From Candidatus Bathyarchaeota archaeon B24 (GTDB lineage Archaea > Thermoproteota > CALKCG01 > B24): DNA of 64,000 nucleotides. Below, piece by piece: positions 55,731-55,980 of the stretch (the first letter of the stretch is position 1; each line of letters starts with the position of its first letter). Made by a program: the position numbers and the translations under genes. The notes beneath the pieces were generated by a model. It was given only the letters and a program-made list of their open reading frames with translations. It was not told the origin of the DNA and did no database searches. The stretch spans positions 1-64,000 of the forward strand of contig LUCB01000005.1 in the NCBI GenBank assembly GCA_001593865.1. The letters are read 5' to 3'.

Positions 55731-55886
55731 CTATGCGACTCTCGTAGCCGTTCGGAACCTCGTCTTACAGTTAGGGCATTCGAAGAGGGATATGCGAACC
55801 CTAGGCCCCTTCTTCCTCTTGGGTTGAATCTCCCATTCCTTTATAGGTTTTTCAACCTCCGTACCACACTTCGGGCACTTAGCCAT
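55731..55886 (-). CDS. Small (51 aa) zinc-ribbon protein, Cren7-like chromatin protein candidate
   Basis: MAKCPKCGTEVEKPIKEWEIQPKRKKGPRVRISLFECPNCKTRFRTATRVA; ATG at 55884-55886; the ORF-track start at 55985 runs through the promoter. Confidence 0.75.
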   Translation of the reverse strand: MAKCPKCGTEVEKPIKEWEIQPKRKKGPRVRISLFECPNCKTRFRTATRVA

Positions 55887-55895
55887 CTTCCATAC

Positions 55896-55980
55896 CTCCA
55901 TGATGGAGATGGAGGTCCATGATATATAAGATTTTCCATGATGGATCGTTGGCCTTAAGGTGTTCGAATATTGTCCATCA
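55896..55980 (-). promoter_or_regulatory. Operator array TCCATGATGGA (palindromes centred 55902 and 55940, half-site centred 55921, distal half-site at 55974) around a TATA box (55921-55930)
   Basis: Direct reading: CTCCATGATGGAG, TCCATGAT, TCCATGATGGA; TCCAT starts at 55897, 55916, 55935 and 55974. Confidence 0.7.

Follow-up and report, generated by a model that had tools for sequence, protein, structure and literature searches.

The window, a 64,000-nucleotide stretch of the genome of Candidatus Bathyarchaeota archaeon B24, carries on its minus strand a small gene of the Cren7 family (51 aa plus stop, MAKCPKCG...RFRTATRVA), an assignment that draws on Pfam, orthologues and an AlphaFold model. 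The product scored 29.8 bits against the Pfam Cren7 profile (PF11520; cut-off 25), with orthologues in the sister genus and in family f3 falling slightly under that cut-off, and the solved structures that its profile matched best were Cren7 chains. The AlphaFold model, built on 26 relatives (pLDDT 85), predicts a Cren7 fold: the top 11 PDB matches in Foldseek were all Cren7, with a TM-score of about 0.67 and 40% identity, but with E-values of 0.03-0.2 for this very small protein. The four zinc-ligand cysteines are kept, and zinc-ribbon Cren7 proteins of Bathyarchaeota have already been described (PMC5906684). Below the Cren7 chains, Foldseek returned the zinc-ribbon domain of the NrdR repressor (TM-score about 0.7, weak E-value). 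NrdR binds DNA sequence-specifically, and the resemblance seen in the model is only a lead toward such binding here.

Upstream of the start codon (ATG at 55884-55886, minus strand) lie the parts of an archaeal BRE/TATA promoter, namely a TATA box, a purine-rich BRE and a predicted start some 25-30 bp downstream, which the TATA box at 55923-55930 would place near 55899-55901. Two exact TCCATGATGGA palindromes (55897-55907 and 55935-55945) and a half-site, TCCATGATata, flank this TATA box. The features, in the direction of transcription, are:

55974-55978, minus strand: isolated ATGGA word (TCCAT on the plus strand), found in the genus relative only; a doubtful member of the array
55935-55945, minus strand: putative operator site 1, an exact palindrome that reads TCCATCATGGA on the gene's strand and overlaps the upstream BRE edge
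55931-55937, minus strand: putative BRE, GGAAAAT, overlapping site 1; assigned from its place directly ahead of the TATA box and from archaeal promoter anatomy
55923-55930, minus strand: TATA box, CTTATATA, read from the sequence and conserved in orthologues
55916-55926, minus strand: putative operator half-site 2, ATATCATGGA, overlapping the downstream TATA edge
55909-55920, minus strand: inverted repeat ATGGACCTCCAT, between the TATA box and the start site
55897-55907, minus strand: putative operator site 3, TCCATCATGGA; exact palindrome spanning the predicted transcription start
55895-55899, minus strand: Shine-Dalgarno sequence GGAGG, 8 nt before the ATG, overlapping site 3
55889-55893, minus strand: extra ATGGA word between the Shine-Dalgarno sequence and the start codon, retained in the genus relative (L005) and the sister genus (L006)
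55731-55886, minus strand: Cren7-family zinc-ribbon gene (55734-55886 without the stop codon)

A preliminary description of this promoter had placed palindromes centred at 55902 and 55940 and a half-site centred at 55921, 19 bp from each, at the start site, at the TATA edge and upstream of the BRE of the reverse-strand gene. These centres and spacings are exact, and site 3 does span the predicted start, half-site 2 the TATA edge and site 1 the BRE edge. To that list can be added ATGGA/TCCAT words at 55889 and 55909, the latter making 55909-55920 itself an inverted repeat of the form ATGGAGGTCCAT. The further TCCAT that had been counted at +39 is present at 55974-55978, but it is neither palindromic nor in register. 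The helical argument was not supported: 19 bp corresponds to 1.8 turns at 10.5 bp per turn instead of the proposed two or so, and the sister genus, with spacings of 21 and 18 bp between mainly ATGG half-sites, departs from a fixed 19-bp phasing on one face of the DNA.

The promoter core is more strictly kept than its surroundings. In L005, the only other genus member found (protein 98% identical), the core matches the window at 61 of 61 positions, against 96 of 127 (76%) upstream of it and 73% at third positions of the gene's codons. In L006 the array can still be recognised as ATGGAaaaccTTATATATATcATGGAtaTCCATtttctcATGGAgtgATGGAaaATG, with the outer TCCAT halves absent, mainly ATGG half-sites kept and only the ATGGAG half of site 3 retained; in family f3 it reads ATGGAaagcCTTATATATGGaaaCCATagtaaCCAT. 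The ATCATGGA part of half-site 2 is kept in genus and family, and the inverted repeat at 55909-55920 becomes ATGGATATCCAT in the sister genus and TATGGAAACCATA in f3. Family f2 retains ATGGAaag ahead of the TATA box, and the ATGGAAA half of site 1 stands at the same place in all members of the order with an orthologue and in most Bathyarchaeia; L010 and L020 are without the BRE-side site. The full palindromes and the exact 19-bp phasing are an embellishment at the level of the genus.

The half-sites themselves recur upstream of orthologues, as the preliminary description had led us to expect. Of 136 tetramer pairs, CCAT/ATGG was the one most enriched ahead of 97 distinct Cren7-like genes drawn from several archaeal groups, with a mean of 2.55 per 77 bp compared with 0.39 in 288 control promoters (intergenic promoters on the same contigs as the Cren7-like genes; Mann-Whitney p ~4e-40, relatedness ignored). 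Among promoters with a good TATA box, 72 of 94 at Cren7-like genes had a half-site at the BRE edge and 61 of 94 had one on the start-site side (controls, 5/110 and 11/110), and half-sites on both sides were found in 49 of the 94 and in a single control of 110. The trend at the BRE edge and at the start-site side ran the same way in all three groups. The counts are not independent events, since many of the 97 promoters belong to related Bathyarchaeia, so it is phylogenetic spread and near-uniqueness within genomes that carry the argument.

The element takes a different form in each group: ATGGAAA-(TTTTTTAT)-...-AAACCATGG in Bathyarchaeia, the last part near the start site, and ACCAT 8-13 bp ahead of the TATA box in Methanomethylicia. 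ATGG and CCAT also swap orientation at the same place (L055 and Methanomethylicia), and both occur, as TCCATCATGGA, in the window's genus. Because spacing varies between groups and the half-sites change from one to the next, the constant feature is the presence of CCAT/ATGG half-sites on the BRE edge and close to the start site; a rigid array with 19-bp steps is not constant. Nor does the element follow every Cren7. Most canonical crenarchaeal cren7 promoters are without it, a BRE-side half-site being present in only 5 of 26.

Near-uniqueness was evident from composite patterns. The BRE-TATA composite ATGGAAAnTTnTTTAT had 13 matches in 12 Bathyarchaeia genomes, 12 of which, one per genome, lie by their coordinates at the Cren7-like gene. 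In the window's order, each of the six genomes had ATGGAAAnYCTTATA at its Cren7-like gene (8 matches in total), and over both groups the ATGGAAA-TATA composite marked the Cren7-like promoter in 18 of 18 genomes, with three other matches. The extra matches, in G002, G006 and G109, were rejected as Cren7-like promoters for want of a Cren7-like gene downstream. With the start-site half included (ATGGAAA-TATA-CCATG), 8 matches remained in 12 genomes, all at the Cren7-like gene, while CACCATAAnnnTTTTTA had six matches in eight Methanomethylicia genomes, five of them at Cren7-like genes.

Several other promoter patterns were seen alongside these. Methanomethylicia with two or three Cren7-like paralogues (L057-L073, L118) have two promoter types, which differ in the word upstream of the TATA box: ACCATAA at a distance of 8-9 bp, or ACCATtgagcaag at 13 bp. 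Many Bathyarchaeia (L075-L100) have a further conserved stretch, roughly TTTTCTATTCGAAAACA, that lies 20-30 bp upstream of the TATA box and precedes the ATGGAAA-TATA composite. A minority of canonical cren7 promoters (L174, L182, L184, L186) carry ATGG(A/G)AA directly ahead of the TATA box, and some Sulfolobales-like cren7 promoters have ctcATGGtattat in common, about 33 bp upstream of it.

Within the window's own genome the exact motif is rare, as shown by the genome-wide scan that the preliminary description had proposed as a check. TCCATNATGGA occurs at three places in 1,731,399 bases (the 1.73-Mb genome; one for the reversed-pattern control), two of them at the Cren7-like promoter and the third within a HypF-like coding region (product named from its sequence, not by a family search). 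With one mismatch allowed there were 60 sites and 54 in the control, and the loose motif, being at background level genome-wide, therefore does not mark a genome-wide regulon. Controls here comprised the window, 400 kb of further stretches and pattern searches. The seven TCCAT/ATGGA words within 60 bp form the densest cluster in 464 kb, the best unrelated cluster having three. Among 334 promoters, 117 with a TATA box, a half-site stood on the BRE side in 3/117, on the start-site side in 5/117 and on both sides in none. A wider regulon was rejected on these grounds: only three exact palindromes exist, one of them coding; no other sampled promoter has half-sites on both sides of its TATA box; and the few promoters with at least three words share no common function. 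A six-word cluster at C5:109683 was also set aside, as it lies within a long coding frame.

That a conserved, gene-associated promoter element exists at this locus can be stated with high confidence. Chance clustering of short words might be argued from the one-mismatch matches at background level, but in view of the densest cluster in 464 kb, the core conserved at 61/61 positions and the recurrence at orthologous promoters we consider it negligible. The element would also have little chance of being an RNA device, in which ACCTCCAT-CTCCATC-ATGGAGGT would form an 8-bp hairpin hiding the Shine-Dalgarno sequence in the 5' leader. The complementary arms are there, but with the predicted start at about 55899-55901 the 5' arm would stay outside the transcript, the BRE-side site would lie upstream of the RNA, and the hairpin is not kept in orthologues; we rejected it as conflicting with the predicted start and not conserved. 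It is less improbable, though still unlikely, that the array is a strong-promoter variant, an extended BRE plus a start-site element that raises basal recruitment of TFB and polymerase at a highly expressed gene, with no regulator involved. Chromatin proteins are abundant, and ATGGAAA, the most constant word, stands directly against the TATA box and takes in the purines of the BRE. A general signal of this kind should, however, recur at other highly expressed genes, and same-genome controls lack it (5/110 and 3/117 on the BRE side); orientation swaps and an inverted repeat after the TATA box are likewise unexpected of a BRE. The swaps of ATGG and CCAT at the same place fit protein binding in either orientation better than a one-strand signal.

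We favour, with a probability of roughly 0.6, the reading that the array is a gene-specific transcriptional operator, probably for a repressor. Archaeal repressors block TFB/TBP or polymerase at sites overlapping the BRE, the TATA edge or the start site. At the Cren7-like gene, a sequence-specific DNA-binding protein would recognise CCAT/ATGG half-sites, whichever way round they lie, at three places: the BRE edge, the flank of the TATA box and the start site. Once bound, it would block TFB/TBP and RNA polymerase, and the blocking would set the level of an abundant chromatin protein. What the sequences show is the sites, their enrichment, their placement around the TATA box, their near-restriction to the Cren7-like gene and their conservation across archaeal groups; both the binding and its repressive effect are inferred.

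Which protein would read the sites is a more tentative matter. It could be the Cren7-like product itself, acting in negative autoregulation, and the restriction of the element to one gene family, Methanomethylicia paralogues included, fits such a loop. Characterised Cren7, from Sulfolobales, is regarded as binding DNA without sequence specificity (PMC12141716), and this counts against the Cren7-like protein as reader. The same point speaks for a separate, dedicated transcription factor, for example of the Lrp, Lrs14 or ribbon-helix-helix type, and classical factors do build such arrays: Ss-LrpB acts through three palindromes set at regular intervals in its own control region (PMC4046817). Against a separate factor, no other promoter with the composite was found in 18 genomes, so that its regulon would be close to a single gene and would not include its own gene by way of this element; nor did a candidate regulator come to light. 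We give the two readers similar and rather modest odds. Slightly more speculative is the full evolutionary scenario, in which zinc-ribbon Cren7 would be a sequence-specific autorepressor acting on ATGG/CCAT around its own TATA box, in an old dosage loop of Bathyarchaeia, Methanomethylicia and their relatives that was lost or degenerated in many crenarchaea in which Cren7 has lost its zinc site. The preliminary description as a whole is thus partly supported: an operator-like array does lie over a Cren7-family promoter, with sites that flank the TATA box, are conserved upstream of orthologues and are not abundant elsewhere, so that neither of the two outcomes it had named as refuting was observed.

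Among known systems the closest is the Ss-LrpB operator of Saccharolobus solfataricus, in which several regularly spaced palindromes in one control region are bound cooperatively and serve autoregulation (PMC4046817). The array resembles it in its multiple, regularly spaced palindromes (19/19 bp in the window's genus; in the sister genus they are degenerate, with spacings of 21/18 bp). The Ss-LrpB motif, TTGCAAAATTTGCAA, is read by an HTH dimer that has other targets too, whereas the half-site here is ATGG/CCAT, the spacing is not conserved, and the protein is a 51-aa Cren7-fold zinc ribbon without an HTH. The gene thus does not encode an Lrp-family HTH protein bound to TTGCA...TGCAA; its motif is TCCATNATGGA and its product Cren7-like, and the array may be comparable in its working to the Ss-LrpB operator but is not a member of that class. 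Another likeness is offered by Lrs14/AbfR1 of Sulfolobales, small proteins that organise DNA and are proposed to bind the region of their own promoters (PMC12529230 and references therein); Lrs14 proteins are winged HTH proteins with a motif unrelated to this array, and binding by AbfR1 of Metallosphaera is reported not to be sequence-specific (PMC12529230). That a nucleoid-associated protein of archaea can have a defined DNA motif is known from UBP, which binds an origin motif (ucm), protein and site both differing from those described here (PMC12141716).

The literature searched, which included few subscription journals, held nothing relevant on a conserved operator upstream of cren7-type genes, on cren7 regulation or on promoter elements of Bathyarchaeia, and, as far as it shows, control of chromatin-protein dosage in histone-less archaea has not been described for the Cren7 family. 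That CCAT/ATGG sites mark this one gene in distant lineages, and hardly any other place tested, suggests a dedicated, perhaps self-regulating switch. A cis element that has stayed with a Cren7-like gene across deep archaeal lineages gives the search for the regulator a defined DNA target, and makes it possible to test whether a chromatin protein supposed to be nonspecific is capable of specific autorepression.

One further observation concerns the start of the gene. At 55887-55901 on the minus strand, the codons ATG GAG GTA TGG AAG run in frame ahead of the annotated ATG, and the predicted start site falls on the first ATG, which makes a leaderless, longer form of the protein conceivable in the window's genus; the sister genus has a stop codon at the position of this extension.
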